Assembly (NCBI GenBank): GCA_029959285.1
Contig: JASCOE010000002.1
Span: 534,963-598,962, forward strand
Direction: 5' to 3'
DNA from: Flavobacteriaceae bacterium PS02337
Lineage (GTDB): Bacteria > Bacteroidota > Bacteroidia > Flavobacteriales > Flavobacteriaceae
DNA length: 64,000 nt
Position numbers and translations under genes: made by a program
Shown here: positions 12,972 to 40,045 of the stretch, piece by piece
How the letters are laid out: each line of letters opens with the position of its first letter
Numbering within the stretch: the first letter of the stretch is position 1
Notes under the pieces: model-generated
What the model was told of the DNA's origin: nothing
Database searches by the model: none
The model's input: only the letters and a program-made list of their open reading frames with translations

Positions 12972-12988
12972 AGCATTTTACTATTGAT

Positions 12989-13723: not shown

Positions 13724-13768
13724 TTTAATGCCCTTGCTCTGTTCCGGTTTTTTAGGTACTTTTGCCTT

Positions 13769-14008: not shown

Positions 14009-14041
14009 TTCCGATCCTTCCGTAAATTCTTAATAAAGCAG

Positions 14042-14069
14042 AAAAGCACCTATTTGGGTGCTTTTTTTA
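14042..14069 (+). terminator. Intrinsic terminator after the small 79-aa gene
   Basis: A stem of nine pairs (AAAAGCACC-type arm 14042-14050 with GGTGCTTTT 14057-14065) has a 6-nt loop and ends in a T run. Confidence 0.88.
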
Positions 14070-14097
14070 TGCCCTGAAAAATAAGGCTTTTTATATT

Positions 14098-14154
14098 TTG
14101 TTATTATTTAGAACATTTTATTTTTAAAAATTGTTATTATCCGTGCTAATTTTG
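14098..14154 (+). promoter_or_regulatory. dinB promoter: -7 box plus paired direct repeats
   Basis: A TAnnTTTG-type -7 box (TAATTTTG, 14147-14154) lies 23 bp before the preferred dinB start. Upstream, TTGTTATTAT occurs at 14098-14107 and 14131-14140, 33 bp apart (three helical turns), spanning the place where a -33 element would sit. No good -33 TTG at normal spacing is visible. The repeat pair is a good candidate operator for a damage-responsive regulator; the regulator is not encoded next door. Confidence 0.55.
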
Positions 14155-14177
14155 ACAAGTATAAAATGATCAAGATT

Positions 14178-15359: not shown

Positions 15360-15362
15360 ATC

Positions 15363-18416: not shown

Positions 18417-18495
18417 TTTTTTTTATGTAAAGTCCTAAGAATGAATTAAATTTGATAGAGAAGTAAAAAAAGAGAAAGAAAAATAAGCATGCAGC

Positions 18496-18520
18496 ACAGC
18501 AGTTTTCTGCTGTTTCTTTT
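18496..18520 (+). terminator. Hairpin terminator after dnaE
   Basis: Perfect 7-bp arms ACAGCAG (18496-18502) and CTGCTGT (18507-18513) have a TTTT loop and are followed by TTCTTTT. It ends the dinB-dnaE transcript about 80 bp after the stop. A TAnnTTTG box (TAAATTTG, 18447-18454) lies between the stop and this hairpin, so a short RNA from that box is possible but unsupported. Confidence 0.65.
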
Positions 18521-18704
18521 CCACAATAGCTTTTTTCGCTGCTCATTTTCTTTTATAAGCCTTTCAATGCGCTTGATATCTATTGGCCAAGTTTCCATAA
18601 GATGAGTTTTGCCAGACTTAAGCGCAATGAAAAAGACAAAAGCCCTTATAAGGGTAAATTTGAGTCAGGATAAGACATTATTAACAGCCTTAAAACGGAA
18701 AATT

Positions 18705-19331
18705 ATGTGTTATTACACCCAGCAGAATGCCTCGATAGAAGACCTGAAAAGACGATTTAATGCGGAACTCGACAACGAGGAGACCTATCTGAAGTCTGAT
18801 TTTATAAACGGTTTCTCCCATCCCAACATCCCCGTTATACTCGATTCCTCTCCGCACCTTATCACGACGGATTACACTTGGGGGCTTCTGCCTTCCTGGG
18901 CAAAAGACATTGAGTTCAGGAAAAACACGCTCAATGCACGCATTGAATCCATCGACGAGAAAGCATCGTTCAAAAATATAACACACAACCGATGTCTGAT
19001 AATCGCTTCGGCCTATTACGAATGGCATTGGAATGACGAAAAAGGAAAAAGCAAGGACAAGTACCAGATCAATTCGCAGGATGATGAAATCTTCACCTTT
19101 GCAGGCTTATATTCTTCGTGGACGGATCCGGTAACCGATGAGATTAAAAACACCTATACCATGGTGACCACTAAAGCCAATAAGATAATGGACTTCGTAC
19201 ACAACCACAAGCACAGGATGCCTATCATGCTGAAAAAACAGGATGAAACGGCTTGGCTGGACCAGTCAGTCGCTATCACGGAATTTGCCTATCCCTACGA
19301 AGGAAACTTGATTGCGCTTCCATCAAATTAA
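18705..19331 (+). CDS. SOS response-associated peptidase (SRAP; YedK/HMCES-like)
   Basis: The start is placed so that the product begins Met-Cys (MCYYTQQNAS); Cys2 is the catalytic residue exposed after Met removal, so upstream Met codons are rejected. The 208-residue protein shows the SRAP blocks WGLLPSWA, NARIESIDEKASFK, RCLIIASAYYEWHW and HRMPIML. The family forms a thiazolidine DNA-protein crosslink at abasic sites in single-stranded DNA and protects them. Its place after dinB-dnaE suggests a damage-tolerance set, useful when DNA arrives as a single strand during transfer. Confidence 0.92.
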   Translation: MCYYTQQNASIEDLKRRFNAELDNEETYLKSDFINGFSHPNIPVILDSSPHLITTDYTWGLLPSWAKDIEFRKNTLNARIESIDEKASFKNITHNRCLIIASAYYEWHWNDEKGKSKDKYQINSQDDEIFTFAGLYSSWTDPVTDEIKNTYTMVTTKANKIMDFVHNHKHRMPIMLKKQDETAWLDQSVAITEFAYPYEGNLIALPSN

Positions 19332-19341
19332 TAGCAGCTTT

Positions 19342-19767
19342 ATGAAACAGGATATCGATTATTTCAAAGGCATGAGCACCGAAGACCTGCATCAGAGATT
19401 TCTGCAGAAGCTGTATTCCAAAACAGAATTCATACAGTACAATGACCCTGATGATTTTTTCGATCCGGAACAGGAATACGGAAATCATATAACGCAGTGT
19501 ATTGCAGAGGAAAGAGATTTCATAAGAGAATTAATTCGAAGCTCATCAGCCGAAGCCGGAATAGTACTGGCAGACGAGCGTGTTGAAGAATTGGTGCAGC
19601 AGAAAAGTGAAGAGATCAACCAGCTTACCGGATCGTCAATCGAAGACTATATTGAAAAGACTTCGGTAACCTATATTGACCCAGTGATGGAATGTGAACA
19701 AAAATTTCCTTTGCAGAGGTGGCTGTGCAGATTTTGGAAATTTATAAAATCTTTATTCAGCAGATAA
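19342..19767 (+). CDS. Unknown protein, 141 aa, downstream of SRAP
   Basis: Start at 19342 (MKQDIDYFKGMSTEDLHQRF), 10 bp after the SRAP stop, so probably cotranscribed. I do not recognise it. It is acidic and helical, without signal peptide, with a short hydrophobic/aromatic C-terminus (RWLCRFWKFIKSLF). It may be an element-specific partner of the repair genes. The ORF is well placed and has normal composition. Confidence 0.6.
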   Translation: MKQDIDYFKGMSTEDLHQRFLQKLYSKTEFIQYNDPDDFFDPEQEYGNHITQCIAEERDFIRELIRSSSAEAGIVLADERVEELVQQKSEEINQLTGSSIEDYIEKTSVTYIDPVMECEQKFPLQRWLCRFWKFIKSLFSR

Positions 19768-20020
19768 CCATTTCAAAATGGAACAAAAGTAAACTACCTT
19801 CCCATTATCTTTGCATTGTTAATTATAAAACAATGTATCCAATAAATGAAATCGTGATTAACAGCTCTTTCCTGGTATTAAGAATGTTCTTCTTCAATTA
19901 TACATTTTTCATTGGCAGCACACTCAAATTTGCCAAATACATCCAACTGTATATAATATTCCTTTTCCCTATTGTTCCCTTCAAATCCCTAATTGGTTTT
20001 TCATTTTAAAAATAATACTT

Positions 20021-20410
20021 TCAAAATACCTCCTGATATAGGAGTTCAATTGTTATCTGTTTTTTTGCTTTCCCTTCTTCCACGAAAATTGTACTCCATC
20101 TCGGCACGAAATTTTCAACCAAATAATGGAAAGCACTAAGAATTTCTTCTGCAGAATTTTCCAAATCGATTCCCAAATTCTTTTCATATCCGATAATGCG
20201 ATAGAACACGCCATCCTGCAGCAGCTCATCCTGTCCATCGGCTGTGTTGTCAGGCGCCATCCCAAAGCAGAAAATTTCAGTACTGCTGCTAAGAAGTTCT
20301 ATCAAATGGGACCGGATGGTTAAAAACAGAGCCTCGTCACTAAGACCAAAAGGAACATCCAGCCGGCCGGCCCTGATTGTTAGCGCAAGATCTTCAAAAT
20401 GCAGTTCCAT
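20021..20410 (-). CDS. Unknown protein, 129 aa
   Basis: The start is placed at MELHFEDLALTIRAG (20410); the longer frame adds 11 residues across an A-rich stretch. It is not recognised. The product is acidic with mixed alpha/beta pattern and has no membrane segment. It lies downstream of the 154-residue gene on the same strand, 66 bp away, and the two probably form an operon that is divergent from the DUF4365 gene. An immunity or antitoxin-like role is possible but only by position. Confidence 0.5.
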   Translation of the reverse strand: MELHFEDLALTIRAGRLDVPFGLSDEALFLTIRSHLIELLSSSTEIFCFGMAPDNTADGQDELLQDGVFYRIIGYEKNLGIDLENSAEEILSAFHYLVENFVPRWSTIFVEEGKAKKQITIELLYQEVF

Positions 20411-20476
20411 AAAAAAAAAATTAGTTTCTAAAACCAGCCGCATATATCAGCTATGCAAATCAAGAAAACAGCCGCT

Positions 20477-20941
20477 TCAGTCCAGAATGCCCTTTCCAAA
20501 TATCTTCTCCACCTGAAATATATAACTTTTCAAAATAGGCGTTGGAAGAAAAAATCTGCTTACTGCAGCAGCCGTTGCATCCAGCTTCTGATTATCAAAT
20601 GATTGTTCCAGCAATACAGTATAATCCTTAAGCTGTCCCTCATCAAATATTTTGCGTAAATCCCTTTCGGTATTAATGTAAGATTTCAGCATGGGAAAAT
20701 CATTATTATTGTCCATTTCGTACCTTTCAAGTCCAAATTTTAATTCAAGAAACTCTTTTCTGAACAATTCAAGAATTTTAGGCAAATTGTGGCCATATAA
20801 GATGTTAGGTATGAGTCCTGCTTTATAATTAGCATAATGATCCTGCGAGCACATCTGATTCTCGAGGTACCTTTCAAAAGTCTGAATTCGGTATATATAA
20901 TCAGCTTCAAAAATATTAGGATCTTGATAATCAATATTCAT
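20477..20941 (-). CDS. Unknown protein, 154 aa
   Basis: Not recognised. It starts MNIDYQDPNIFEADYIYR and is helical, soluble and rich in aromatic and acidic residues. It is transcribed away from the DUF4365 nuclease-like gene across a 143-bp divergent region. With the downstream 129-residue gene it may be a two-gene unit at the left edge of the defence cargo. Confidence 0.55.
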   Translation of the reverse strand: MNIDYQDPNIFEADYIYRIQTFERYLENQMCSQDHYANYKAGLIPNILYGHNLPKILELFRKEFLELKFGLERYEMDNNNDFPMLKSYINTERDLRKIFDEGQLKDYTVLLEQSFDNQKLDATAAAVSRFFLPTPILKSYIFQVEKIFGKGILD

Positions 20942-21084
20942 ATGATGTCTATTTCATGTTAACCATAAAAATAGATAAATTTTCAATTACATTTTGATAT
21001 AACTTATTGTTCTCAGAAATTTCCGATATAGGTTCAGCAAATCTCCATCCATTTTTCTAACTTTACTTTGTAAATTTACTCATT

Positions 21085-22920
21085 ATGATGTACCGCAGTT
21101 TTGAAGATGAGGATCTTCCCAAAGTAAATCCAAACGAGAACCTTGAAACAATTTCTGAGTATCATCTCCTATCATTGTTCCCTATTGAAAAATTTCAAAT
21201 CAGGGCAGAAAAAGACAGAGACAAGGGAATTGATTTTCATATTGAACTTAAAAAAGAAATGGCCGATGGCCGATGGAGATACACCAACTATCAATTTGCT
21301 GTTCAGTTAAAGGCAACCAATACAATTCAGCAGTCGGATGATGGCAGTTTTGGCTTCCAGCTTTTTACTTCAAATATCAATTACCTGCTCAATAATCCGA
21401 TGCCTGCCTATTATATCTTTTACCACCATCCTACAAAGGCTTTTTTCTACGAAAATGCAAAGAATCTTGCCATGCTGCTCCAGCATAAAAACCCCGAATG
21501 GCAAAAGCAGCAGTCGCACAAAATTTATTTCACCAAAAAACTTGACCAGCAGGCCGTTCAGCACATTTATGATGAAACCTATGCGCATGGTGATACACTA
21601 AAACACATAAATCAATTTATTAACCCGCTTGAAACCAAGAATAATTCAGATCGATTGATTATTGATGCAGACCTTGAGGTCTATAGCGTTGCACAAAATA
21701 TCGAATTTATTGATCAGTTTGGTGCCGATCTGGTAAATAACAATCGTTTCAATACAGTAATTGAAATAGAGAAAAGAAGCTGGCCCAGGGACAGCGCGAC
21801 GCCCCGCTTTTATCTTTTTTGCGGAATTGCATATTATCAGAGGGGAAATCTTTTCAAAGCGCTTGAACTGCTCACTGAGGCAAAGAAACTTTCTGGCGAA
21901 TTTGACCGCCAGGGACAGGCAATAATTGAGCACACTATTTTAAGTGCAAGATATCTGCTTGATATGATAACCAAAGACGACTTTGATCTTCAGATGGAAA
22001 AGATAAACAGCCTAGTGGATGCCGGATCCTTTTTTCAGATTGAAAAAGCTTATGAAACGCTCTCCTCAAACAGGGCACAGCCAGCTGCAGCGATCATACA
22101 GTATTATGATACAATGAAGAAGATTATTGAAAATGAAAAAAGCTCCTTTGTCCGCATTGTCGCCTATAATAAGATTATTGAGGCAGAGTCCTCAATTCTT
22201 CTGCATGATCTGGCGATGAATTTTTCGTTTTTTATGGGACGTGTCCAAAGGCCATTTAAAAGCAGGGCATATCTGGAATGGCAGCAGATTGAAAGGAAAT
22301 TCATGGATAGGCTTCATGCTATTGAGGCATACACAAATAAATGCGGCTATCATATGGGAGGAGCATACCTAACATTGGTATTCATAAAATGGAACTATGA
22401 AAAGGCAATTCATATTCACTATCTGGGATGCTGGAAGAAGAGAAATTTCGACTTGCTTGAACCGGTAAATGGCTTAATGCTGCAGATGCTGGAGAAACTT
22501 TGCGGCTCACTCGATCAGCTTTCGCAATTATACCAGACAAATGACTATATTGAAAATATGATTTCCAGCATGATACTAAAATTTCAAATCCAGCATTTTT
22601 CAGGAAAATACGAAGAAGCCAATGAAACAAAGAATAAAATTTTGCATGCCATCGATAAACATGGATTTCAGGGGTTGAAAAAAGAGTATGAAACTATTTT
22701 TAACAAGGGAACCGCACATGAGTGTTTCGTAGAAAAATATACAAAGTTTATGAACAAACTTCAAGACTCAGCAGTAGAAAAAGGTTTTGACCCTTATCGA
22801 ATTCTTAGCGAAAAGGAAATGAATTATAAAACTGTATGGTCGATAATGGACTTTATTGAACTTGACTTTTCCATACTATCAACAATAGACGATAAGGAAA
22901 CTCAGAAAAATAACGACTAA
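21085..22920 (+). CDS. DUF4365 nuclease-like protein with helical C-terminal region
   Basis: A 611-residue protein. Residues 20-150 match the DUF4365 pattern, with DRDKGIDFHIE (Asp50) and FAVQLKAT (Gln74-x-Lys76), a PD-(D/E)XK-like active site in which Gln replaces Glu, as is common in this family. The remaining 450 residues are helical, probably TPR-like (YYQRGNLFKALELLTEAKKL near residue 255). DUF4365 domains are frequent in antiphage genes, fused to sensor or repeat regions. It stands alone, 494 bp before the Hachiman-like operon. A sensor-plus-nuclease role is inference. Confidence 0.7.
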   Translation: MMYRSFEDEDLPKVNPNENLETISEYHLLSLFPIEKFQIRAEKDRDKGIDFHIELKKEMADGRWRYTNYQFAVQLKATNTIQQSDDGSFGFQLFTSNINYLLNNPMPAYYIFYHHPTKAFFYENAKNLAMLLQHKNPEWQKQQSHKIYFTKKLDQQAVQHIYDETYAHGDTLKHINQFINPLETKNNSDRLIIDADLEVYSVAQNIEFIDQFGADLVNNNRFNTVIEIEKRSWPRDSATPRFYLFCGIAYYQRGNLFKALELLTEAKKLSGEFDRQGQAIIEHTILSARYLLDMITKDDFDLQMEKINSLVDAGSFFQIEKAYETLSSNRAQPAAAIIQYYDTMKKIIENEKSSFVRIVAYNKIIEAESSILLHDLAMNFSFFMGRVQRPFKSRAYLEWQQIERKFMDRLHAIEAYTNKCGYHMGGAYLTLVFIKWNYEKAIHIHYLGCWKKRNFDLLEPVNGLMLQMLEKLCGSLDQLSQLYQTNDYIENMISSMILKFQIQHFSGKYEEANETKNKILHAIDKHGFQGLKKEYETIFNKGTAHECFVEKYTKFMNKLQDSAVEKGFDPYRILSEKEMNYKTVWSIMDFIELDFSILSTIDDKETQKNND

Positions 22921-23414
22921 TAATGTTAGAAGTAAAATTTGCATACTAAATTGCAAAGCATCTCAGTCCATTCTCGCAATTTATTATGCAATAATTTCTG
23001 TTTTCTTAAAAAATTAGCACTTATATTTTCTTTATTTACATCACTTTCAACTTTAATAGGCCGATACTTATTAATACAGCAAAATTCTCCTTTCCAATTC
23101 TTTCGTCTAAATCTATTCCCTTCAGTCTAATAAGAAATATAAAAAGAAGGCAAATATTATAAGTATTTCTACTATCTTCAAATTTTACCAGATTTTCAGC
23201 ACTTCTTTATCTTTTTCTCAAAATAAACGGGTATTTCTACTTGTTGCAGTACTATTAATATGTGATACATTTATCAAGATTTGTTGCAATAAATACGGTT
23301 TTCCGTAATAACTTTTATTTTATTATTTTAATATTTGTCATACTTAAATTAAACCTTAAAGGTTTTTTTTTATGTAATTTTCAATAATAACAACTTATAC
23401 CAAAACTTATTATA
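22921..23414 (+). promoter_or_regulatory. Long upstream region of the HamA-HamB operon with repeats and small hairpins
   Basis: No gene is supported in these 494 bases. It contains TTGTTGCA at 23241-23248 and 23281-23288, GTATTTCTACT at 23163-23173 and 23231-23241, a hairpin TACGG-TTTT-CCGTA at 23294-23307, and a small hairpin AAACC-TTAAA-GGTTT with a following T run at 23351-23370. The last is terminator-like and only 45 bp before the hamA start, which could allow attenuation of the defence operon. Confidence 0.45.
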
Positions 23415-24185
23415 ATGTTTGGTCGCTATAAAATTAAAATCTCAGATAAAGTCACTCTGCACTGCATCAGCTTAGACCAGTATTCTGACAGGCTGAAAAA
23501 TTATATACATAAAAATCTGCACTTCATCTGGAACGGGGATAATGAAGAGATTGAGAGCAGTATGGATATAAAAGTCACTAAACAGGAATTAATTAATCTA
23601 CTTGCAAAGAAAACTCCAAAACAAAAAATCGGCATTGTCTCAGAGTTTATCTGCCACCTCTATCTTCGAAGCTGTAATTTTAAACAGCATTTCCTATTTC
23701 GCAATCTTGAAGAAAAAGGAATGAAGAAGGGTTTTGACGGTCTTTATCTTCAGAATGATGCTTTTTTTATTTATGAAAGTAAATCATCTCTCGAATCCAC
23801 AACCGATTCGACACACAACGGCAATATAAGTGAAGCCTATAACGATCTTAAAAAAAAAATAGATGGCAGTAACTCGGCTAATGATCCTTGGAGAAATGCC
23901 TACAATCACGCTGCCCATCGCAGCATAAATTACAATGAAAATATTTCAAAAACATTAAAAAAACTTTCTATGGAGTATGTCCAAGAAGAGTATGGCAGCA
24001 TCGATGATTATAATGTAATTCCAAGCTCGACATTGTACATGGGTGCAAGGTATCTGCCCATTGACAAAGATGATTTGAAAGCAAAAATAGAAAGCTTAAC
24101 AAGTGCTTATGGATCGCAGAGAATTGTTGTTTTATGCGTCAACAAAAAATCTATACAACAATTTATGGACTATTTAAATGAGTAA
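23415..24185 (+). CDS. hamA: HamA-like (DUF1837) nuclease of a Hachiman-type system
   Basis: A 256-residue protein with the HamA/AbpA pattern: GIVSEFICHLYL (Glu77), KGFDGLYL (Asp108) and FIYESKSS (Glu121-x-Lys123), together a PD-(D/E)XK nuclease site. HamA is the effector of Hachiman, held inactive by HamB until damaged or invading DNA is sensed. The stop overlaps the helicase start by 8 bp, the coupling expected for hamAB. HamA is typically of similar length. Assignment rests on motifs plus the helicase neighbour. Confidence 0.82.
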   Translation: MFGRYKIKISDKVTLHCISLDQYSDRLKNYIHKNLHFIWNGDNEEIESSMDIKVTKQELINLLAKKTPKQKIGIVSEFICHLYLRSCNFKQHFLFRNLEEKGMKKGFDGLYLQNDAFFIYESKSSLESTTDSTHNGNISEAYNDLKKKIDGSNSANDPWRNAYNHAAHRSINYNENISKTLKKLSMEYVQEEYGSIDDYNVIPSSTLYMGARYLPIDKDDLKAKIESLTSAYGSQRIVVLCVNKKSIQQFMDYLNE

Positions 24186-26628
24186 TATTATCACCGTTGA
24201 GAAGAGGCAGTTATCTGAGCTTAAAAAGAATGACTATTTTAATGACTGCCTCACTAAACTGGTTCTCGGTTCAAGACTTGAGCATCAGCAGGCACAGTAT
24301 CTGCTGAGCTCTGCATTGATATTTTTTGAATACTACAATAGAGATCAAAGACTGAAGGGTTATTTTAGCATAGCGTACTATATTATACTAAAATACAGCA
24401 TTTTGCATAAAAATTACAAACCTTTATATGACATAGCACTACAAATCGGTTTTTATCCCATTTCAGATTACTTGATCAAATATAGACTGCTGGACGAAAA
24501 CAATCTTCAGGAATCATTGATCAATAGACACATTTCAAAACTATACGGAAAGGAAAACTATATCGAAACTATAGAACAATACAATAGATCTAACGAAGTA
24601 TTTGCTAATATAAAGATAAAAGATACGGCATATATTGCACCTACATCGTATGGCAAAAGCTCGATAATCAGAGACGTAATTCTTCAAAATGATTTCAACA
24701 GAATTGCAATCATTGTTCCTACAAAATCTTTGATAACGCAGACTTATAACGATATCAGGAAAATGCAGCTGAATTACAAGTTAATTCTACATGACGAAAT
24801 GTATACAGGTCAGGAAAGGTTTATAGGCATTCTTACGCAGGAACGCGCATCGAGACTTGTTAATAAAAAGAAATTAAGTTTCGATATGCTTTTTATTGAT
24901 GAAGCACATAATCTACTAGACAATGACAGCCGTAATTTACTTCTATCCAGACTAGTAATGCTCAATTATAAAATAAATCAAGACCAGAGATTGTTATTCC
25001 TTACCCCTCTCATTTCTGATGCATCTAATCTAAAAATTAAAAACACCTCAGAAAAGCAAATTTTTGAAAGTACTATCAAACATAATTTAAAAGCATATGA
25101 TGTTTTGTATTTGGACAAAGATGGATATTTATCCGCCTATAATAAATATACCAATGACTATTACCCATTAAATAAAAAATTTACGTTCAGTGATTATATC
25201 ACAACGAATGCAAAAGAGAAAAACTTTATTTATAATTACAAACCCAGACAAGTTGAAAGAATTTCTGCCTTAATTTTCAACAGCATTACAAACGAGGTTG
25301 AGAGCCCGCTTCTCCGTGGCATTTCCGAGGTTATAGCAACTGAAATATCAGAGGATTTAAATATTGTTCAGTACATTTTAAAAGGAATTGCCTATCTACA
25401 TGGTAAAATGCCGACAATACTAAAAGATTATTTGGAATATAATTATAAAGAAATTAAAGATTTCAAATATGTAATTGCAAATTCAGTTATTCTGGAAGGC
25501 ATAAATTTCCCGATCGACAATCTTTACATTACCTCAACATATAGCCTCAATGCTAAAGACCTGAATAATCTTATTGGTAGAGTCAACAGGCTTAATTATG
25601 TTTTTCAGGAAAATTCTCTTCACAAAATGCTGTCTCAGATACACTTTGTCGACAGTACAGAATTCGGGAGTTTAAAAGGCAGTATGTCCAATAAAATTGT
25701 ACTGCTGCGTGAACATGTATTTACCGACGAAAATAAAAATCCACTGCTTGAAAACTATAGCGTAGAGAATCTAAAGCTAAGTAAACAGGAAAAAGAAACC
25801 AAAACTGCAAGAGATAAGAAAATTATTGATGCAACAGATTTTTTAATAAATATTGATCCTGAAAATATTAATGGCAGGATAAAGATGAACTTAATAGAAA
25901 ATAATATTGATGATTTTTACAAGGATATTGAAAAAGTGATTCCAGTAATTATTTCAAACAGTCGAAATATCACGCAGCCGGATGAAGTAATTAATACAAT
26001 ATATGAGGTTTTCATCAAAAATTTAGAACATGAAATAAAGGATTTTGAAATTGAACGTTTAAAAAATGAAAAGGCCAGAAAATACTATAAGTTTTACATT
26101 GATCTATTCCAGCTGTTTGGTCTGAAAGATAAAATTAAGGATACGGTAAAATATTTAGAATCGAAAGCTCTTTCGGATGACCCTTTTTTGTACATAGGAG
26201 GCTCTTTCGGCGATACGGTGAGACAGTCAGCGATTTACAATAATCCAAAATCTCAGCAATCGGTTTATATTGATCTAAAAGGAAAAAACAAAGGGGATAT
26301 GGCAAATATTGCACTGGTTAAAATAAAGCTAGAAGAAGATTTTGTCAGCTTTAAAATAAAAAAGTTGATAGCATTCCTAATTGATTTCAATTTTATCACT
26401 GAAGATGCATATTATCTTGCCGTATATGGGACTACAGATGACAATCTTATAAATTTGACTCGAATAGGATTAAATCCTAATACTATTAAGCTGCTTACAG
26501 AATACGGACAGATTGAAAACATTCAGTTCGATGAAAATGGCAATTTGATTTCCAACAGAACTTTTAAACGTTTTCTTGCCGAGCAGCCCCGGTTGATTCA
26601 GTTTGAAATCAATAAGTATGTAAAATAG
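24178..26628 (+). CDS. hamB: HamB-like superfamily 2 helicase of a Hachiman-type system
   Basis: An 816-residue helicase. Walker A is APTSYGKS (154-161), the DEAH box is at 241-244 (FIDEAHN), motif V lies near VILEGINFP (about 440), and motif VI is GRVNR (467-471). An N-terminal helical domain of about 130 residues and a C-terminal domain of about 300 residues flank the motor, as in HamB. HamB binds HamA and senses DNA. The next gene starts 44 bp downstream on the same strand, so the operon continues past the known two-gene core. Confidence 0.85.
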   Translation: MSNIITVEKRQLSELKKNDYFNDCLTKLVLGSRLEHQQAQYLLSSALIFFEYYNRDQRLKGYFSIAYYIILKYSILHKNYKPLYDIALQIGFYPISDYLIKYRLLDENNLQESLINRHISKLYGKENYIETIEQYNRSNEVFANIKIKDTAYIAPTSYGKSSIIRDVILQNDFNRIAIIVPTKSLITQTYNDIRKMQLNYKLILHDEMYTGQERFIGILTQERASRLVNKKKLSFDMLFIDEAHNLLDNDSRNLLLSRLVMLNYKINQDQRLLFLTPLISDASNLKIKNTSEKQIFESTIKHNLKAYDVLYLDKDGYLSAYNKYTNDYYPLNKKFTFSDYITTNAKEKNFIYNYKPRQVERISALIFNSITNEVESPLLRGISEVIATEISEDLNIVQYILKGIAYLHGKMPTILKDYLEYNYKEIKDFKYVIANSVILEGINFPIDNLYITSTYSLNAKDLNNLIGRVNRLNYVFQENSLHKMLSQIHFVDSTEFGSLKGSMSNKIVLLREHVFTDENKNPLLENYSVENLKLSKQEKETKTARDKKIIDATDFLINIDPENINGRIKMNLIENNIDDFYKDIEKVIPVIISNSRNITQPDEVINTIYEVFIKNLEHEIKDFEIERLKNEKARKYYKFYIDLFQLFGLKDKIKDTVKYLESKALSDDPFLYIGGSFGDTVRQSAIYNNPKSQQSVYIDLKGKNKGDMANIALVKIKLEEDFVSFKIKKLIAFLIDFNFITEDAYYLAVYGTTDDNLINLTRIGLNPNTIKLLTEYGQIENIQFDENGNLISNRTFKRFLAEQPRLIQFEINKYVK

Positions 26629-26672
26629 AAGCAAAAATTCAATAAAAATCATTTCGATAAATCCTTATAGTT

Positions 26673-28589
26673 ATGGACATAATAAAGATTAAAAACGAAT
26701 TGGATGCGGATCCCGTTTTATATAAAAATCTTAGAAAACTAGTATTAGATTGTATAGCTCAGAGGACTAACTTATTTAGTATTTCCGATTCTATAATTTT
26801 ACAGAAACTATTGGATGTAAATGCAGTTTTAAAATTTGACGACGATTCTTATGAATTAAAATTAGATTCCCAATATTTAATTCCAATTCTATTTGAAATA
26901 AGTGAAGAACTTGCAGAAAAAGTATTTCCGCGAAGCTTACCGGAGGTATTTGATTATATAGACAGCTTTGAGAAAAATGCTCTAACAGATCCGAAATTTA
27001 ATAATTGGAGAGGATCAAGGGAAATGATTAGAAGTTTGGAAAAATATTCATCACTGTATTTAAACCAGATTTACGGGATTGGCGTAAAAGTTTTATTCGA
27101 AACACTGGCTGACCAAGCATATCATGAAAAAGACTGGTACTTTGACTGCCAGGAATCTTTCTATGGGCTTCTCCCCTATATGAATTATGAAATATCTGAA
27201 CTCTATGATGTTTTGGTAAGTATCCGCCAAATGAAAGATGATTCGCATTATGCTAATGAAATACTTTATAATTTAACATCAGTGAATGCCATCGCTTCAA
27301 AAGAACTTTATAATTTAGGACTTGAAAAAGATTTGCTGGTCCATAACGGACTGGCTTCTTATCTTATTGCATATCTATATAATAGATCAGAAATCAGCCT
27401 TTATGAGGAAGCAGCAGACCTTATGCGACGAAATAAAAGTGCAGGTCTTAGCGCATTTTCGTTAATTAGATTTAAAAATACTTCTGATTTACAAAATTCA
27501 TTTAAACTTATAAAAAGTAGCAGCTTCAATGAACAGGAAGATCTAAAAAATCTCACATTGTATCTTTTCAGCATAATCGCATCCGATCAATCAGACTTCC
27601 AAACCGCTACCGAATCATTCCAGATGCTTCACAGTCTAGCCGAAATCCACAGAGGGAATATATCACCATATATTTTAATGGTTTCCAAAATTCAGAAAGG
27701 TTTTGAAAGCGAAAGATATTCTCTCCTGCTTGATTGTTTAGGTAAAGGCGCTGATAGAAAATTAATCTCAGATTATTTTATAGGGTTTGATGATCCTAAG
27801 TACTTTTTTAATTTATATATATATTACGTTTCAAAACGTGGACTAAATGTTGAACTCAATTTGTTTGAACGTAGTATTAATCGTTTCTGGCAGACCTCAA
27901 GGGAAAAAACAGAAAAAAATCTGCTTGGATTAATTACACACAAAAATCTACTCATTAGGTATAGTTCTGTTAAGCTTATTACTTTGGGACATAACATTAT
28001 TGTTGACCTGCTAAAAATTAAGGAAGCGGAAAAACAGTTGCTTACCATAAGCCCGCTTCTTACCTATCCCCACTCAATAGAATCACTCCTGCCCATTGCT
28101 ATAAAGCTAAAAGACTCAGAACATCAAACTGTAAGGTCGACACTTGAAGCTTCGCTGAATATGCTTATCATTCAGGCCTACGGTAAAGGTATTTATGATT
28201 TGGCAGAACCCTTTCTAGACAAAAAAAAAGATCAGAAACTCATAAAATCACTAAAAAATACATTACAAGAATATATAGAGTCAATAGATGCAAAAAACAA
28301 GATCAATGATTTGAATCCCCGGTTGAACGAAAGTGATCTAATGAAATTTTATATAAAATTAGATAATGAAAAGAATTATGAGATTACAAAGGAAGCTACT
28401 CAGGCTGATCCAATGATGGCTTTCTACTCTACAAAGAATATTGTACGGGGAAACTCTTGGAAAGTAGGAGAAATGGCCCCAACTCCTCTAAGCACATATT
28501 CAATAAACTTGCTTATCGACAAAAGAATGGTTTTAAACCCAGATCTATTTGAGATGAATCTGAATAATGCATTTAATGTTAATGAATAA
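26673..28589 (+). CDS. Large helical protein of unknown function in the HamAB operon
   Basis: Not recognised. The 638 residues are almost entirely helical by pattern, with spaced Leu/Tyr/Ala blocks suggesting TPR- or HEAT-like solenoid repeats, and with no membrane segment and no evident catalytic motif. It begins MDIIKIKNELDADPVLYKNL. It starts 44 bp after hamB and its stop overlaps the next gene's start by one base (TAATG). That tight coupling ties it to the nuclease-like gene that follows. A scaffold or sensor role is inference. It is not part of the canonical two-gene Hachiman system. Confidence 0.7.
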   Translation: MDIIKIKNELDADPVLYKNLRKLVLDCIAQRTNLFSISDSIILQKLLDVNAVLKFDDDSYELKLDSQYLIPILFEISEELAEKVFPRSLPEVFDYIDSFEKNALTDPKFNNWRGSREMIRSLEKYSSLYLNQIYGIGVKVLFETLADQAYHEKDWYFDCQESFYGLLPYMNYEISELYDVLVSIRQMKDDSHYANEILYNLTSVNAIASKELYNLGLEKDLLVHNGLASYLIAYLYNRSEISLYEEAADLMRRNKSAGLSAFSLIRFKNTSDLQNSFKLIKSSSFNEQEDLKNLTLYLFSIIASDQSDFQTATESFQMLHSLAEIHRGNISPYILMVSKIQKGFESERYSLLLDCLGKGADRKLISDYFIGFDDPKYFFNLYIYYVSKRGLNVELNLFERSINRFWQTSREKTEKNLLGLITHKNLLIRYSSVKLITLGHNIIVDLLKIKEAEKQLLTISPLLTYPHSIESLLPIAIKLKDSEHQTVRSTLEASLNMLIIQAYGKGIYDLAEPFLDKKKDQKLIKSLKNTLQEYIESIDAKNKINDLNPRLNESDLMKFYIKLDNEKNYEITKEATQADPMMAFYSTKNIVRGNSWKVGEMAPTPLSTYSINLLIDKRMVLNPDLFEMNLNNAFNVNE

Positions 28590-30310
28590 TGGATAAACAC
28601 ATAATAGTACGCGATTACCTGGAGTCCCTGACCGAAAGTGAAGAACTGGATTATTTATTCCCGATGCTACTTGAAGCCATGGGATTTGTAATTCTTACCA
28701 AACCAACAGAATTTAAAGGCTTTCCCCAATACGGAAAAGATATTATAGCAGTAGGATTAGATAAGAGTGATAAAGTTAAAAAGAAATTCTATTTTGAGTT
28801 AAAAGGAGGTCAGGACCGAAACATTACCAACAAAACACTCCACAAATCTGACGGTATCATTGAATCTCTCAGAGAAGCAAAATATAGAAAATTCGAATCA
28901 TACTCGCATCCCAAATTCAAAGATCTGCCCCTAAAGATTGTTCTTGCCCACAATGGCACAATAAAAGGCGGAGCAGTGGAAACATTTGAGGGTTACATCT
29001 GTGATACGTTTCCTGAAACTGGTCATGTAGCATTTGAACGCTGGGGAATATCGGAACTGACACAGCTCTTTACGCAATATTTATTTAACGAGCAGTTACT
29101 AATCAATAAAGAAAGCGTACGTTTATTCAAAAAAGTCATTGTAAATCTCGATACTGTTGACAATGTCTCTGCTGAATACCTGCAGCTGCTGAATCTTCTA
29201 TTTTCAAGATTTACAAAAGAAGATTATGGCAACGAGCTGTCAAGAAAATGGAAAGTATTTTTCGAATCCCTTAAGCTCATTGCTTTCATCATTTTCACAT
29301 CTTCTAAAGATTTTAACAACATTGAAATTGCTAAAAAACATATTACATACCTTGTTATTAAATTTTGGAACTGGTGCCTAATTAACCGCTTTGACGACAA
29401 TTCTAAAATTCTAAAGTACTTCAATCAGATCTACTCATTTTATACTGATAAAGTTCTTGACTTATACTTTTACAGAACACTTCCTATCGCTTTGATGAAA
29501 GACGGCCTTCATCATGATAATGGAGGCAGATATGAGACTATTGGATATCCCATGAGAACGATGGAATATCTGCATTATCTCTGCTTTTACATTGAATTTC
29601 ACTATGATGATATTGTCCAAAAAGGTGAGCTGACTGCATACAAGAATATTTTTATAAAAATTTTAGACAATAACAATATTAGTGCGAAACCTCTGCTTGA
29701 CATTCATTCAAACACCATCTTATCTGTTCTAAAGCTTTTAATAAAATTTGATGTTCATGAAGCAGCCAGAGACTATTTGCGTTACGTTATGGTTTATATT
29801 CAATACCGAAAAGACACACATGATATCCTTCCCGATGCTGCAAATGACATTAAAAATGTAATTCAATTTACCGTAACCCGTAAAAAGCCACCATATTATA
29901 TTGATAATGTTTCTTTCCTACTGTCTATGATATTGGAATTTGTCGCTCTCTTGGATATGGAGCAGGAGTATTATGATTATAAAGAATTCATTGAAAAGCA
30001 TAAGATAGAATTAGTGATGTTTATCCCTCACGGGAATTTACCGAAAGAAAATGCCCTTATAAAAAACAAGGATTTTGATTTAGAAGAGTTATTATTTTCT
30101 GTTTCAGTCCATGAAGGTTACCAGGCAGATCTAACTCTCGATGAAAATTTTCAGGAATTTAAAACCAAAACATTAAATTCAATAAATGATTTTAATTTTC
30201 AATACAGAACAGATAAAGCGGTGCATTGGCAACTGCGAATGCTTGCACATTACTGGTTTAAAACACCATATTTTCCAGACCACTGGAGAAAAATTCAAAT
30301 TATTAACTAA
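28589..30310 (+). CDS. PD-(D/E)XK nuclease-like protein, fourth gene of the HamAB operon
   Basis: A 573-residue protein. The N-terminal 130 residues look like a restriction-endonuclease fold: FPMLLEAMGF (Glu29), QYGKDIIAV (Asp51) and FYFELKGG (Glu70-x-Lys72). Then follow about 430 residues of helical sequence without known motifs. The start overlaps the upstream stop (TAATG), so translation is coupled to the helical protein. The operon therefore encodes two distinct candidate nucleases, HamA and this one. Substrate and relation to HamAB are unknown. It is convergent with ptuB, 20 bp away. Confidence 0.7.
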   Translation: MDKHIIVRDYLESLTESEELDYLFPMLLEAMGFVILTKPTEFKGFPQYGKDIIAVGLDKSDKVKKKFYFELKGGQDRNITNKTLHKSDGIIESLREAKYRKFESYSHPKFKDLPLKIVLAHNGTIKGGAVETFEGYICDTFPETGHVAFERWGISELTQLFTQYLFNEQLLINKESVRLFKKVIVNLDTVDNVSAEYLQLLNLLFSRFTKEDYGNELSRKWKVFFESLKLIAFIIFTSSKDFNNIEIAKKHITYLVIKFWNWCLINRFDDNSKILKYFNQIYSFYTDKVLDLYFYRTLPIALMKDGLHHDNGGRYETIGYPMRTMEYLHYLCFYIEFHYDDIVQKGELTAYKNIFIKILDNNNISAKPLLDIHSNTILSVLKLLIKFDVHEAARDYLRYVMVYIQYRKDTHDILPDAANDIKNVIQFTVTRKKPPYYIDNVSFLLSMILEFVALLDMEQEYYDYKEFIEKHKIELVMFIPHGNLPKENALIKNKDFDLEELLFSVSVHEGYQADLTLDENFQEFKTKTLNSINDFNFQYRTDKAVHWQLRMLAHYWFKTPYFPDHWRKIQIIN

Positions 30311-30330: not shown

Positions 30331-31038
30331 TCAAATCTGGCCATTCGCTCTAACAATTCTAGCGCCTGTATTGCGATCAGACTCTTTATAATTATGATAA
30401 CGGTCTGTCCAAATAATATCAATCTCATTCAAGACGTCTTGTTCTCCTTCAAAAATTTTACACCAGAGCGAATAAAAACCGATTAATGAAGTTTCTGCGA
30501 TTTGCTCAACCATCATTTTTCTAAAAGGACTATCATAATAATTACGTACCTGAACCCAGCGATTGTAGGATGACATTGCAGTAATCTTTATTTCATCTCT
30601 TAATCTCCATCTTGTGTCTGCTTCAGTCGGTAAATTCGTATTTCCTGGATACCTATCCAGCCCGACAAGCGTTATTAATCTGCCGGCATTATCCTGCTGA
30701 GTCTGATTTAAAGTGTTTTTGACCATTATAACTCTGTTATCGAGTGTATAATCATATAGCAAGTCAGTATTGTCAATATCGGGCCAGTAATATCCCGTTC
30801 TACTTGTATTATTTGCTTCTTTTATAGTATTGCAGTATTTACAGGACAGAAGAAAATTTTCCCAGTCAAGTTCATTGCCTCCATGATGTGTCGGATGGAC
30901 ATGTTCCACCTCAATCATATTATTGGTGCCCATTTCGCAATAGGAACAATAATACCCAATCCTTTTAGCCAGATCATGTCTGGCTTCACTATATTTTGCG
31001 TAGGCACGTGGTGCCGCACCTTTATCTACTGCTCTCAT
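30331..31038 (-). CDS. ptuB: PtuB-like HNH endonuclease of a Septu-type system
   Basis: A 235-residue protein starting MRAVDKGAAPRAYAKY. It has the HNH arrangement CSYCEMG, then IEVEHVHPTHHGGNELDWENF, then LSCKYCNTIKE: two Cys pairs and the EHVHP/ENF core. This matches the family of HNH proteins paired with AAA ATPases in Septu and in some retron systems. Its start overlaps the ATPase gene end by 17 bp. No reverse transcriptase lies nearby, so plain Septu is preferred. It would cut nucleic acid when released or activated by PtuA. Confidence 0.85.
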   Translation of the reverse strand: MRAVDKGAAPRAYAKYSEARHDLAKRIGYYCSYCEMGTNNMIEVEHVHPTHHGGNELDWENFLLSCKYCNTIKEANNTSRTGYYWPDIDNTDLLYDYTLDNRVIMVKNTLNQTQQDNAGRLITLVGLDRYPGNTNLPTEADTRWRLRDEIKITAMSSYNRWVQVRNYYDSPFRKMMVEQIAETSLIGFYSLWCKIFEGEQDVLNEIDIIWTDRYHNYKESDRNTGARIVRANGQI

Positions 31039-32329
31039 TCTTATTTCGTAAAAAATCCTGCAGTATTTTTTCTTCTTTCATTACAGAAAATAAGGCAGTG
31101 TCGTGCGTAAATGGTTTGACGGCTTCCAAGAACTTCTCTTCTAAATCTTGAGTTAAAGTGCCATCTTTTACTGCTTCATAGTAAATCGGTGCTATCTCAT
31201 AAAGTTCTTGACGCTTTTTGCTCCATTGCGGATTGTCCACCTTCTGATGAAATTCTGCGATATCTTCAATACTAAGATTTACACCGCTGTTATTCTCTCT
31301 TATTCTATTATTTTGTATGATTAAAAGCTCATTTTCTTCTGTCTCCTGTATAATAAACGGCGAATGGGTTGTACAGATAAACTGGATTTTTGGAAAGGTC
31401 GACTTTAATGCTTTCACAATTTTTCGCTGCCATTCAGGATGAAGATGCAAGTCCAGCTCATCGATTAAAATAATACCCTCAGTCTCAATAAGAGCATTTT
31501 CTCGTAAGTGAGGGTTTAATGTTGTTGCTTTATAGGCTATATCAGAAATCAGCGCAAAAAAGTTTCTAGTACCATCACTGAGGTACGTGAAAGGCAGCAC
31601 CCTGCCATCGTTAAATTCAACTTTTAACCCCTGTGGTTTATCAGGATCAAATTCAAAATAGAAGTTTCTGCAGTCTGGCAGATTATTAATAACTGCTTCC
31701 TGCACAAGTTTCATAGCTATGTCTTCGCTTCGTTTTTGAATACGAGAAATTTCTTTGGCCTTAAACCATTTATGAAACTGCTTATATGTTGATTTAGACT
31801 CTAAACATTTATCATATGCCCTGAAACGCGAAGCAATATGCACTTTCGCTTCCTCCTCGTTCTTTAAGGACTTATCTTTAGCTTCATCAAATAAACGACC
31901 TGTCGCATAATAGGCCAATAAAGGAAGATTGACATTTTCTCCCCTTGAAATAGCATCCTGCAAATGCTCCGCATAGGCGCTTACTTCCCTAGCGTAAGTA
32001 GAAGTTGTACGGTTCTTCAGCCCATTTAAAGATCTGTGCCAGCATAGTTCTGTACCATCGATTATACCGCAAGACTCTATCTCAACCGGAAACTGATATT
32101 CCTCAGAATATTCAAATGCCGCAATACGGATATCATTTTTGTTGATTCCTCTTGCATAAACATTACGTATACCAAGAAAAAAAGATGACATTGCAACAGT
32201 CAGAGCCTCTAAAAGTGCCGTTTTTCCGCTACCGTTATCTCCAATTATAAGATTAAAATTGGAAAGAAAATCTACATCAAGAATATCGTAACCTCTAAAA
32301 TTTTTTATGACTAATTTATTAATTTTCAT
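31022..32329 (-). CDS. ptuA: PtuA-like AAA ATPase of a Septu-type system
   Basis: A 435-residue SMC/Rad50-like ATPase beginning MKINKLVIKNFRGYD. Walker A is GDNGSGKT (30-37), the signature-like motif is YLSDGTRNF, Walker B is GIILIDELDLHLHPEW, and the H-loop is CTTHSPFI. Size and order fit PtuA, which regulates PtuB. The two genes overlap by 17 bp on the minus strand, against the direction of the Hachiman-like operon. A TAnnTTTG box upstream supports a separate promoter. Confidence 0.86.
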   Translation of the reverse strand: MKINKLVIKNFRGYDILDVDFLSNFNLIIGDNGSGKTALLEALTVAMSSFFLGIRNVYARGINKNDIRIAAFEYSEEYQFPVEIESCGIIDGTELCWHRSLNGLKNRTTSTYAREVSAYAEHLQDAISRGENVNLPLLAYYATGRLFDEAKDKSLKNEEEAKVHIASRFRAYDKCLESKSTYKQFHKWFKAKEISRIQKRSEDIAMKLVQEAVINNLPDCRNFYFEFDPDKPQGLKVEFNDGRVLPFTYLSDGTRNFFALISDIAYKATTLNPHLRENALIETEGIILIDELDLHLHPEWQRKIVKALKSTFPKIQFICTTHSPFIIQETEENELLIIQNNRIRENNSGVNLSIEDIAEFHQKVDNPQWSKKRQELYEIAPIYYEAVKDGTLTQDLEEKFLEAVKPFTHDTALFSVMKEEKILQDFLRNKNESSR

Positions 32330-32394: not shown

Positions 32395-32619
32395 AGAAAA
32401 TTGACATTATTAACATCAGTAACATGATGTTTTTTCTAAAAGCAGCTGTAAATCTTCCTTAAAAAAAAATAGCCGACCTAGAATTAAAATCGACATAAAT
32501 ACTAAAAGATGTTAAAACTTATCGTTTTTGTACGATATTTAACTAATATTAAACAATTTAGTTTTATTTTAGCTACTAGAGAATATGCTTATCATTTTAA
32601 TCAAATTTTAGTACAAACT

Positions 32620-33381
32620 ATGAGTAGTAAATTTCAAGAAGCATTAATAACTGATGTTGATGGTATTATTTCGCTTCCTCTTCTTCATACCTGTGACGCT
32701 TTCGCGTTCCGAAGCATTTTAGATAATGGTGCCCTTATACCACAGATGTGCGATGTATTTAGTTCAGATCTTTTATACACCTACTACGGTATTCCATCCT
32801 ATAGGACAAATTACAGCCTGGCGACCACAAATCCAGCCATGCATATGATTTGTATTATACTTAATGCTGAAGAGATAGATGAGATTTACAAGATTTATCC
32901 TTTTGACAGTGGTGCATTTGAGAGACTGCCGCTCATGAAAGAAACCTTTTTCCATCCTAAGAATAAAATTTTGGACTTTGAAGTTGAAAACTCGTTAAAC
33001 GGGGCAAAAAAAGTGATAAAGACTTTCTACGAAACTAATGATAATTATGTAGCGCAACGCCCAAAAGTTAATAAAAAATTTAATGAACTTGCGTTTGAAG
33101 CTATTAATTATCACACTTTAATTTCGGAAAAAGGTAATTCGATTTTGGATGACAGGGCTTCAAGTATCGAAATTATATTCGACAAAAATATACCGCTCAC
33201 AAAAAACACTGTGAAACAGATAATTATCCCAAACAGCTTCAAAGATGATGATTTTACCAGAAATCTTATTAAAAAAAAATTAAACATTGAAGACCCGATT
33301 GGATATAGCACTTTTCGAGGTAATCCACGAGATAATTTTGGTGCAATTAGAAGTGAATATTTTAAATTTATAAATAACTGA
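32620..33381 (+). CDS. Unknown protein, 253 aa, possible ADP-ribosyltransferase-like fold
   Basis: The start is set at MSSKFQEALITDVDG; the longer frame adds 37 residues of AT-rich upstream sequence. The block LPLLHTCDAFAFRSILDNGALIP (about residues 19-41), followed by LLYTYYGIPSYR, resembles the His...ILxxG start of DarT- or RES-like ADP-ribosyltransferase folds; this is pattern similarity only. The stop overlaps the next start (TGATG), so the pair is coupled. A two-gene defence or toxin-type module is plausible from location. Not confidently assigned. Confidence 0.6.
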   Translation: MSSKFQEALITDVDGIISLPLLHTCDAFAFRSILDNGALIPQMCDVFSSDLLYTYYGIPSYRTNYSLATTNPAMHMICIILNAEEIDEIYKIYPFDSGAFERLPLMKETFFHPKNKILDFEVENSLNGAKKVIKTFYETNDNYVAQRPKVNKKFNELAFEAINYHTLISEKGNSILDDRASSIEIIFDKNIPLTKNTVKQIIIPNSFKDDDFTRNLIKKKLNIEDPIGYSTFRGNPRDNFGAIRSEYFKFINN

Positions 33382-34364
33382 TGCGTTTAAAAGGATACAT
33401 ACTCCCGTTTAAAGAAAACTCATTCACATTTCCAGTTTATGGAGAAACGGATAAATACTATTTTCATTCAGTAAATGACTCTTTTGAAATTATAGATTTT
33501 TATCCTGCAGATTTTTCCGCTGAAAATTTTCAGAAAGTATATCTATCGAATGATTTCCAATTAGGCTCCTTTGGAGCACTTGTCTTTTGCGGCACTGATT
33601 CTTATATCTCCTTCGGTGAAGCTGATAAAAACATTGACGAAATAAATAATTATCTCCATGATACTACGGTAGATACAGAATTCTTTCACATAAAAAAAGA
33701 AGTTTCAGAAATCAAAAGTATTCTGCAAAACTATTCTAATAGGGAAATAAGCAGAATTGATATACTCGAAAATCTTGAGCCTGATAATTACAATGGCTCT
33801 TCTATATATTCATTTGACCTACCACTTTTCCGCAATGAGAATAATTACTATGACATTGATTTTAGTCTTATTTCTAATGAAATGGCTGACTTTAAAGAGA
33901 ACGTTATGGAAAAGCATTTGAAAGAGTTTATTGGCCGTAAAAATCTATTTTCAACCAATAGAGAAATATTCTTTCATCTTCTGCGAAAATACATGGAAGA
34001 AAATCACAATGTCATCAGTCAAATTATGAATAATTCTGAAATTGTAAAGGGCTTTTCTTCTTATCTAGCCCAAAACAGTGATGAAGCAAATGTACTTTTT
34101 GATACCACAATAGAGACTACTTTGAGATTAAATGCCGAAGCAAGGAGAAAATGGCTTAAAGAGTTTAATTATCAATTCCATAAAAATATTGATAAAACAA
34201 AAGAAATGTCAGAAACGCCGGCATTTATAAGAAAAGGAGTGGTTTTAACGGATATACCTCATTCGTCTGAAAGTGGCGATGTGCTACATATAGATTTAAA
34301 AGAATATGATGTTACTATTGATATAACCTCGAAAGATGTAGCGCAACAAAAAAAGAAGGTTTAA
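33381..34364 (+). CDS. Unknown protein, 327 aa, coupled partner of the preceding gene
   Basis: Not recognised. The N-terminal 100 residues look beta-rich (GYILPFKENSFTFPVYGE, FGALVFCGTDSYISFGE); the remainder is helical, with LKEFIGRKNLF and LRLNAEARRKWLKEF. There is no membrane segment. The start overlaps the preceding stop (TGATG). The partner relationship is strong on coupling, but whether this protein is a sensor, an antitoxin or an effector cannot be seen. Confidence 0.6.
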   Translation: MRLKGYILPFKENSFTFPVYGETDKYYFHSVNDSFEIIDFYPADFSAENFQKVYLSNDFQLGSFGALVFCGTDSYISFGEADKNIDEINNYLHDTTVDTEFFHIKKEVSEIKSILQNYSNREISRIDILENLEPDNYNGSSIYSFDLPLFRNENNYYDIDFSLISNEMADFKENVMEKHLKEFIGRKNLFSTNREIFFHLLRKYMEENHNVISQIMNNSEIVKGFSSYLAQNSDEANVLFDTTIETTLRLNAEARRKWLKEFNYQFHKNIDKTKEMSETPAFIRKGVVLTDIPHSSESGDVLHIDLKEYDVTIDITSKDVAQQKKKV

Positions 34365-34813: not shown

Positions 34814-37800
34814 ATGAAGATTGGAAGAAATGATTTATGTCCATGTGGAAGTGGCCAAAAATATAAAAAGTGTTGTATAAATTCAAATTCGACATCTTCG
34901 ACAGATACTTTTCAAAACTACCTCAAAACACACGATGCATCTGAATTATTGAAGATGATTTCTTTAATTCAGTTATTACCAATAAACCAATCTAAACTCA
35001 TCCGATTGGAAAGCATTCAAGATTTAATTTGCTCAAACTTTGAAACAGGTGGTAGAGAAATAGATTATAATTCTGTTAAGCGATTAATTGGCAAAGACTA
35101 TGCTCATGATTATAGAGAAGACCCTGCCGAATCATGTGGGACGGAAAATTTTATGTTTTTCAATGGCAACAATATCGTATTTCCTGGAATAGCTAAAGAC
35201 AGTACACAAATTAACCAGTTACTCTTTAATTCGATTTTTGTCTGGGAAACTGATTTATCTGAAGAATTGAAAATAACAATTCGTGAGGGAGTATATTTTA
35301 TGCTTTATATTCACAACATGATTGCTGAGCGTATGGAGCTTAAAAGATATCTATTTGAAGATGATTGGAGAGGTGAAATTTATTTTCCAGAAAGTAGCTT
35401 CGTTAATAATCATAAAGGCTTGTTTGAGTTTACAAGAGAAGACATTGAGGAAATTTATAAAAGACTGCATATTGAGCAAGATGTCATACAGCATTTTGCA
35501 ACCACCCAACAGGAACTGATTAAAAACAAAACGGAAGCTACAGTATTAGTAAAAAAACCCTTTTTAAAGTATGAAGATAAATTTTATTTAGCATTGCCTT
35601 CTGCACAGATGTACAGTCTAAACATTTTTATTAGAAAGCAGATAAAACTGAAAGGCCAGATTGAAGTTTTAAATTCATGCTATGAAAAAATGGTGTTAAA
35701 CGAGTCGCATAAATATCTCAATATTATGTGGGATAGTGTTGATTTGGGTTTACAATTGAAAAACTATGAATCATTATGGCAGATGGATTCCAACAAATAT
35801 GCCTATGTAAGATTTATTTCCGAACATCAAGATGATGACTTAAAGGAAAGGGCAGATTCAACTATTGCTTTAGCTAAAAAGAACATAAATAACGAAGAAA
35901 CCGAATTTCTTTCTGTGACAATCTTCGCAGGTTACGAGCTAGATGAATTCCATTCTTATCCTCTAGAATATTTAAAAGAAACCAAATATCAAATTGCACT
36001 TAGCTTTTTTGATCTTGAGCGTATTTTCAATCATTGGAAACCAGACGAATTAACTTTATGGAAATATGCCAAAGCAGAAGAAAGAGCGGACAAAGCTAAT
36101 CTAAAAATGATGCCTATGTTTTCTATATTAACATATTTTCAATGGTATAAAAGAAATCATGACTCTTTTTTTCCGACAGATGATGCAGCTCCAAATATGG
36201 TGTGTTTTGATTTTAGTACTCAAGCGGAAATAATTGCCGAATCTGCACAAAAAAATGATAAGCATTTTGTAATGCAAGTTGAAAATAAAATCGGAGATAA
36301 TTCAGAAGCTAAAGTTAGGCATCTACCAGTCATCAAAACGAAAGATTACGCGCCAATTTATGTGTCTGAAGAAATATTCAGCAGAAAATTACGCAAAGTT
36401 TTAGAAGCTTATAGTTTTCCAATTTGGTTTAGCCATGATGAGAGTGTTGGTACAGTAGGCAGCAATTTTATAGAATCTATGATTTATTGGCTGAATGAAT
36501 TTGCACATACTTTAAGTCCATATCTGACAAATCTAGGCAATCTTCCAATTGAATTTATATTGTCATTTGATGAAGGTCTAAATTCTTTTCTGACATCTGG
36601 TATTGAGATTGAAAAGGGCGTAAAAATTAATATAAAATTTGAAGTTGATTCGTACTTGAGAAAAATAAAACTAAAAATTCCTATTGAAATATTTTCCGCT
36701 TTACATCGAAAGGATAACCATGGAGAACGAATTTTAATGGATACTATCCTAAAATCATTCACTGTTTTACAGCGCCGTTATGGACTAATAGAATTTAGTC
36801 AAGAAGAAAGAGAGACATTATTAGCTTCTCAAATGCCTCTCAGCAGTAAAAAAATGCTGCTGACCTCTCATAAAGCAAATGATTACAAAAGATTTGATAG
36901 ATTTATTCCTAAACCAAGATATATCCAAGATGCTGACGTCTCCGTGGTGCTTGAGAGTCAAATTAAATGGATGAATCTTTCATATCAGGTTCCTGAAAAA
37001 ATTAACGATATCCATAAGGTCCCCTTCTTAACTGAATTGATAAATACATTAACTTCTAAGTTAAAAAAATGTCTAAATAATTATAATGCAAAAGAACTTC
37101 TTGTCGATTTAATGTTAAGACATGAAGCCATTATCCAAAGCTCTAGCAACTGGGATTTAGATTTGCCGGCGCGAATCAAATGCTTTGAAAAGTATCAAGA
37201 TGTTATTAAGGAATATAGCGAGGATTACAGCAATGTGGTAAAAGCTTCACATTCTTTACGAAGTTTAATAGAATATGTCGTAGCGGAATGTCCTGCAGGC
37301 ACCAAAAAAGTAAATATTGATGATGTTGATTTTTTATTAGCTTTAATTAATGAGATCATCTTTTATGGAACTACCAAAGATAGTATAGTCTTGGGAATAG
37401 ATAATCCAGACATGGGATTGCTATCATCAGGGCGATTAGGGATGAATCACGATTTTCACGACACAATTTTGGCAAGTTATAAAGAATCAATAATTTTAGA
37501 TGAGATTCAAGGTGTTAATGAAGATTTCGATAGTCACTTTCAAACCGATGAACAAAATTCCGAAATTGATATAGAAAAAGAAGCTTACTACGACAAAATT
37601 ACAAATGCTTTTGAAAAAGATTTAGGGATAGATTTTTATCAAATTGGCATGATTGCTGAGTTCTTGGCAAATTACTGCTATTCGAAAGAAAGTTCTTGGT
37701 GCTGTTGCACCGAAAATAATTTCATAGATTTAGTAACCTCAAATTCAAACCTGTCAAAAACAGAAATATTAGCATTTCTATCTTTTATCCAATTAGAATC

Positions 37801-40043: not shown

Positions 40044-40045
40044 TT

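Follow-up and report, generated by a model that had tools for sequence, protein, structure and literature searches.

Predicted Hachiman and Olokun gene pairs lie head to tail in a flavobacterial defence island

Introduction

The Hachiman system of E. coli ECOR31 is described in the available part of PMC12278908 as two adjacent genes, one encoding HamA, with a D-E(X)K motif, and the other the Ski2-like helicase HamB. There, HamB senses damaged DNA and HamA is unleashed, which clears phage and host DNA alike. A variant of this scheme, HamMAB, is presented in the accessible text of PMC12799240 as a Hachiman with an acquired nuclease-protease pair. In it, HamA carries a fused protease through which the second nuclease, HamM, is activated, and virtually all such fusions are said there to be devoid of the HamA motif.

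The Olokun system receives only passing mentions in the portions of PMC10121019, PMC12629846 and PMC12926258 at hand. The first of these lists Olokun next to Hachiman, each as a defence system of its own, and a table in the last gives the mechanism of Olokun as unknown. No defence paper figured among the matches listed for OloA and OloB in the literature. Olokun is reportedly a stand-alone system of two genes, which Millman and colleagues described in 2022.

Here we analyse a 64,000-nucleotide stretch of the genome of Flavobacteriaceae bacterium PS02337 (the window), in which genes of both kinds follow each other on one strand. A first-pass annotation had read them as an extended Hachiman operon encoding a larger, four-gene complex, with one helicase controlling two possible nucleases, or alternatively as two fused systems.

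Four genes in two coupled pairs

The four genes occupy positions 23415-30310 of the window, all on the forward strand. They are hamA (23415-24185, 256 aa), hamB (24178-26628, 816 aa), oloA (26673-28589, 638 aa) and oloB (28589-30310, 573 aa). The first two overlap by 8 bp, the last two by 1 bp, and 44 bp (26629-26672) separate hamB from oloA, in exact agreement with the co-directional layout given by the first-pass annotation. The tight coupling inside each pair recurs in relatives and is thus not a matter of chance. The junction between hamB and oloA is the only coupling of the four genes absent from every relative locus that we examined.

The second gene encodes a Ski2-like SF2 helicase that PADLOC names as HamB (PDLC00190, 7e-43, residues 64-789). 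It carries the helicase motifs SYGKS, DEAH and GRVNR. The first gene is more elusive: no PADLOC HamA model matches its product, Pfam provides no HamA match but only a sub-threshold one to Rad10, and a sequence search of the PDB gave nothing useful. We regard it as HamA because it adjoins HamB and because it is homologous to a protein of another locus (L067; 23% identity in the alignment), which itself matches Pfam PF08878 (HamA) above the cut-off (1.9e-10) and the PADLOC HamA model (1.5e-6). All 10 aligned rows, the window counted, have D108, E121 and K123. These residues include the Glu121 proposed earlier as an active-site residue and correspond to the motif given for HamA in the part of PMC12278908 that we cite. 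Within the motif, the window has YESK, as opposed to the canonical GExK of the consulted text of PMC12799240. Judged by these sequence features, the first two genes are a divergent hamA, encoding a putative effector nuclease, and hamB, i.e. a Hachiman pair, as the first-pass annotation had it. The analysis also yielded a by-product, a HamA subfamily found mostly in the window's own genus and mostly overlooked by the PADLOC and Pfam HamA models, which miss the window copy and three of the four relatives scanned.

The third and fourth genes match the PADLOC models of OloA (PDLC03925, 2.4e-27) and OloB (PDLC03926, 1.9e-121, residues 4-569 of 573), and the former lies directly upstream of the latter. 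By these profile matches they are predicted to be the two genes of the already described Olokun system. They resemble it in the presence of both genes, in their order and in their tight coupling, and we see no clear difference. We aligned the window's OloB with 49 of 75 single full-length OloBs (alignment A5) and its OloA with 37 of 60 OloAs (A6). The window's OloB shares at most 52% identity with any of the 49 other rows and belongs to a group of 21 OloB rows with good support; hamAB is adjacent at none of the loci of this group.

The 573-residue protein had been credited with a nuclease-like motif in its N-terminal part, D51...E70-x-K72. This stands for Asp51 and Lys72, present in 50 of 50 aligned rows (the window counted), but only in part for Glu70, which is found in 39 rows; the position is otherwise occupied by Q (3), A (5), S (2) or I (1), so that 8 rows have neither E nor Q. 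Most OloBs, including that of the window, may plausibly be read as PD-(D/E)XK proteins; for a divergent branch this is doubtful. Members of that branch (L129, L130, L131, L132, L138, L139 and L140) have FAVK, FSVK or FSIK in place of the usual FELK or FEIK, i.e. they lost Glu70 and kept D51 and K72. Remote homology searches added little. Pfam Mrr_cat matches one of the 50 OloB rows, weakly (0.036), and no useful family emerged when the alignments of OloB and OloA were scanned with Pfam. By hhalign, OloB matched neither HamA nor the pair of DUF4365 sequences nor the one Mrr-like sequence with which it was compared, and a PDB sequence search with OloB produced nothing useful.

Each pair occurs without the other

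If the four genes formed one system, the extra pair should consistently follow hamAB. We looked at this from both sides. Among 297 related genomes, 15 match HamB at 1e-10, and 9 of those other than the window's are close full-length relatives (E 6e-71 or better). All nine have HamA adjacent and none of their genomes is in the list of OloB matches, the window's genome being alone in both lists. This search scored no more than three candidates in each genome, so that other types of HamB can escape it, and indeed the HamB of one genome discussed below (L078) went unreported. A sample of the phylum contained HamB in 5 of 395 genomes, two of them new, which provided two further HamAB loci. HamA adjoins HamB at all 11 other HamAB loci of the window's type, and neither OloA nor OloB is recognised at any of the 11, the DNA examined after hamB being about 7-9 kb long at nine loci and 1.5 kb at two.

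Some of these HamAB loci have neighbours of their own. In L067, a 1459-aa protein (11630-16009) with an N-terminal LmuA match and a STAND-like ATPase region starts 6 bp after HamAB. Genes of the RlaP family (PF10127) lie 3-5 bp upstream of hamA at two loci (L061, 7848-8597; L062, 11916-12665), and the second of these has another RlaP-like gene 5 bp after hamB (7513-8571).

On the OloB side, the 297 genomes gave 11 matches: that of the window itself, 8 full-length ones in other genomes of its genus, and 2 more that are weak and partial. In the stretches examined around the eight same-genus loci (14.0-19.5 kb each) phmmer recognised neither HamA nor HamB. One of these stretches (L015) breaks off within a gene on the opposite strand; L078, judged to be a longer stretch of the same genome, identifies this gene as a hamB. 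In three loci (L012, L018 and L019) phmmer with the window's OloA missed OloA, and in L012 it missed OloB too; for these pairs the assignment draws on position, on the PADLOC OloB model and on alignment, at 15-20% identity for OloA.

We then scanned one genome per species with the OloB alignment, a scan that finds only OloBs carrying either of two peptide patterns. It gave 183 matching stretches, and an OloB relative is encoded in 78 of them. OloA is recognised at 71 of these loci, from -46 to +8 bp from OloB, and the other seven have an unrecognised same-strand frame that abuts or overlaps OloB. HamA is found at none of the 78, by a model built from the divergent subfamily that a canonical HamA could escape. 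HamB is found at one, L078 of Flavobacterium flevense (18353-21007), 6.6 kb downstream of the olo genes and on the opposite strand. It is a true, canonical HamB (PADLOC PDLC00185, 1.5e-268), and any HamA before it would fall at or beyond the end of the stretch examined. The two systems are neighbours in an island there, not parts of an operon; the case speaks against strict separateness to the extent that Hachiman and Olokun can share islands. At 65 of the 78 loci at least 3.5 kb were available upstream of the olo genes, enough to reveal a hamAB, and less at the other 13; hamAB is adjacent to OloB at none of the 78. Homologues of the last two genes thus usually occur without hamAB beside them, at 78 of 78 OloB loci, and they do not consistently follow it, since the arrangement is seen at none of these and none of the 11 other HamAB loci.

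These counts are not fully independent. The models for recognising the pairs were built from alignments (A1-A4) that overlap with the loci to which they were applied: the 78 are judged to include 7 of the 8 same-genus OloB loci, and A3 and A4 contain 9 of the 11 HamAB loci. For these loci the recognition of the pair is thus partly circular, but this does not affect the lack of the other pair.

At 12 of the 78 OloB loci (L132-L137, L140-L145) oloB is followed by a related gene, within 8 bp in 11 of the 12; the one scanned, in L132, is a DUF4238 gene. Both oloA and oloB are broken up in Polaribacter porphyrae (L113, 5622-11717), behind an IetS gene, and oloA alone is in pieces in L111 (8032-10007). 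OloB-like matches occur in 33 of 72,556 plasmid records, all below 60% identity, and phage records and viral contigs contained no OloB relative.

The gene before oloA is interchangeable

What precedes oloA where hamB does not? At 22 of the 78 loci a same-strand frame of at least 100 residues ends within 60 bp, 7 of these being the unrecognised genes in the place of OloA. Among the other 15, the upstream gene has a named family in 8 cases: LmuB (L082 and L083), IetS (L113), MksE (L068), RlaP (L090, 7358-8116, at 4 bp), a BsuBI/PstI endonuclease (L092), DUF4365-dynamin (L093) and HEPN (L097). We found no convincing family for the gene in L077, L081, L084 and L088, the last of which was scanned with PADLOC only and resembles that of L081, and three loci (L117, L126 and L136) fell outside the family scans. 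Given this variety, the gene preceding oloA is interchangeable and the hamB of the window is one more case. Since oloA follows seven other kinds of named genes within 60 bp, close spacing on one strand of a defence island is not in itself a sign of one system.

Two systems in tandem

The window very probably contains two autonomous and known two-gene anti-phage systems arranged head to tail, Hachiman at 23415-26628 and, 44 bp on, Olokun at 26673-30310. This reading draws on the PADLOC names, on the occurrence of each pair without the other, on the interchangeable neighbour of oloA and on the defence-rich surroundings. It bears out the alternative mentioned in the first-pass annotation, that of two systems, and the extended operon with its four-gene complex gives way to it, as does the single helicase in charge of two nucleases, the extra genes being those of a known two-gene system.

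One might still imagine a single four-gene system, in which HamB, on sensing DNA damage, would govern both HamA and OloB as nucleases and OloA would serve as the adaptor. The co-directional genes and a 44-bp junction without terminator-like site would fit such a design, and there is a precedent in the HamM nuclease of the Hachiman described in the part of PMC12799240 available to us, which is activated through the HamA-fused protease. Yet the pairing is seen in the window's genome only, at none of the 78 OloB and 11 HamAB loci, and OloA adjoins unrelated modules elsewhere. Furthermore, the window's HamA keeps its D and ExK and shows no added domain in the Pfam and PADLOC scans, as opposed to the published protease fusions, virtually all of which are without the HamA motif in that same text. 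We thus consider a four-gene system extremely improbable. The likeness to HamMAB, as far as PMC12799240 is available, is that in both cases a further nuclease-like gene accompanies a Hachiman locus; there, the extras comprise an MBL-fold nuclease and a HamA-fused protease, neither of which was identified in the window's four genes. We also considered an acquisition of the HamM type and rejected it, as Pfam and PADLOC provide no MBL or protease match in the four genes.

With two systems in tandem, the most likely course of events can be sketched for each. In Hachiman, HamB would survey DNA, and damaged or aberrant DNA would unleash the HamA nuclease, leading to the destruction of phage and host DNA. 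This mechanism was published for the E. coli system and is transferred to the window by homology and conserved residues. In Olokun, OloB would most likely act as effector by means of the D...E-x-K site in its N-terminal part, and OloA would be its partner or sensor. Given the short gap, hamAB and oloAB may share a transcript; nothing points to a joint complex.

A refinement compatible with the tandem of two systems is that a promoter before hamA drives the transcription of both, and that their effects add up with no physical contact. Spacing, strand and a junction (26629-26672) in which no terminator-like site was found make co-transcription plausible and some functional interplay possible. 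Yet promoter scans were no richer in sites than shuffled sequences (36 sites against a mean of 39.8, 3 against 4.86, and 79 against 86.8). The promoter-like matches at the relevant places, 10/12 just upstream of hamA (23387-23416) and 9/12 over the junction and the start of oloA (26654-26683), are at chance level. We therefore hold this refinement only tentatively, at somewhat less than even chances. It would take a further step for one transcript to bring joint action, with Olokun fed by the DNA ends that HamA produces, or the other way round, in a composite defence that neither system has alone; this we regard as very improbable. We consider the lead closed: the "extended Hachiman" is best read as two known modules juxtaposed.

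The surrounding island

The four genes sit in a crowded defence island in which juxtaposed modules are the norm, and the arrangement of hamAB and oloAB is ordinary in this context. Upstream, 494 bp before hamA and on the same strand, a 611-aa protein (21085-22920) has an N-terminal DUF4365 domain (3.6e-15). Downstream, a Septu pair on the reverse strand (30331-32329; PtuB 6.1e-59, PtuA 5.8e-126, by PADLOC) is convergent with oloB and lies 20 bp from its end. It is followed on the forward strand by two genes with a 1-base overlap (32509-34364; 290 and 327 aa), a candidate new pair, for which Pfam, PADLOC and NCBIfam gave no convincing family. After these comes a remote relative of Upx (34814-38506, forward strand), a 1230-aa SEC-C protein with a PADLOC match of 1.7e-41 and an NCBIfam Upx score of 178 bits against a cut-off of 1900. 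On the reverse strand, positions 39093-42030 hold a predicted AbiL/RloAB-like set with an added nuclease: an AAA gene (AbiLi, 1.6e-90), an RloB-like gene (AbiLii, 1.3e-29) and a Mrr_cat gene (1.5e-8). Further upstream, a Y-family polymerase gene, followed by a gene for a 1017-aa protein, presumably a DNA polymerase III alpha subunit, lies at 14166-18416 on the forward strand, with a G+C content (0.489) clearly above that of the island genes.
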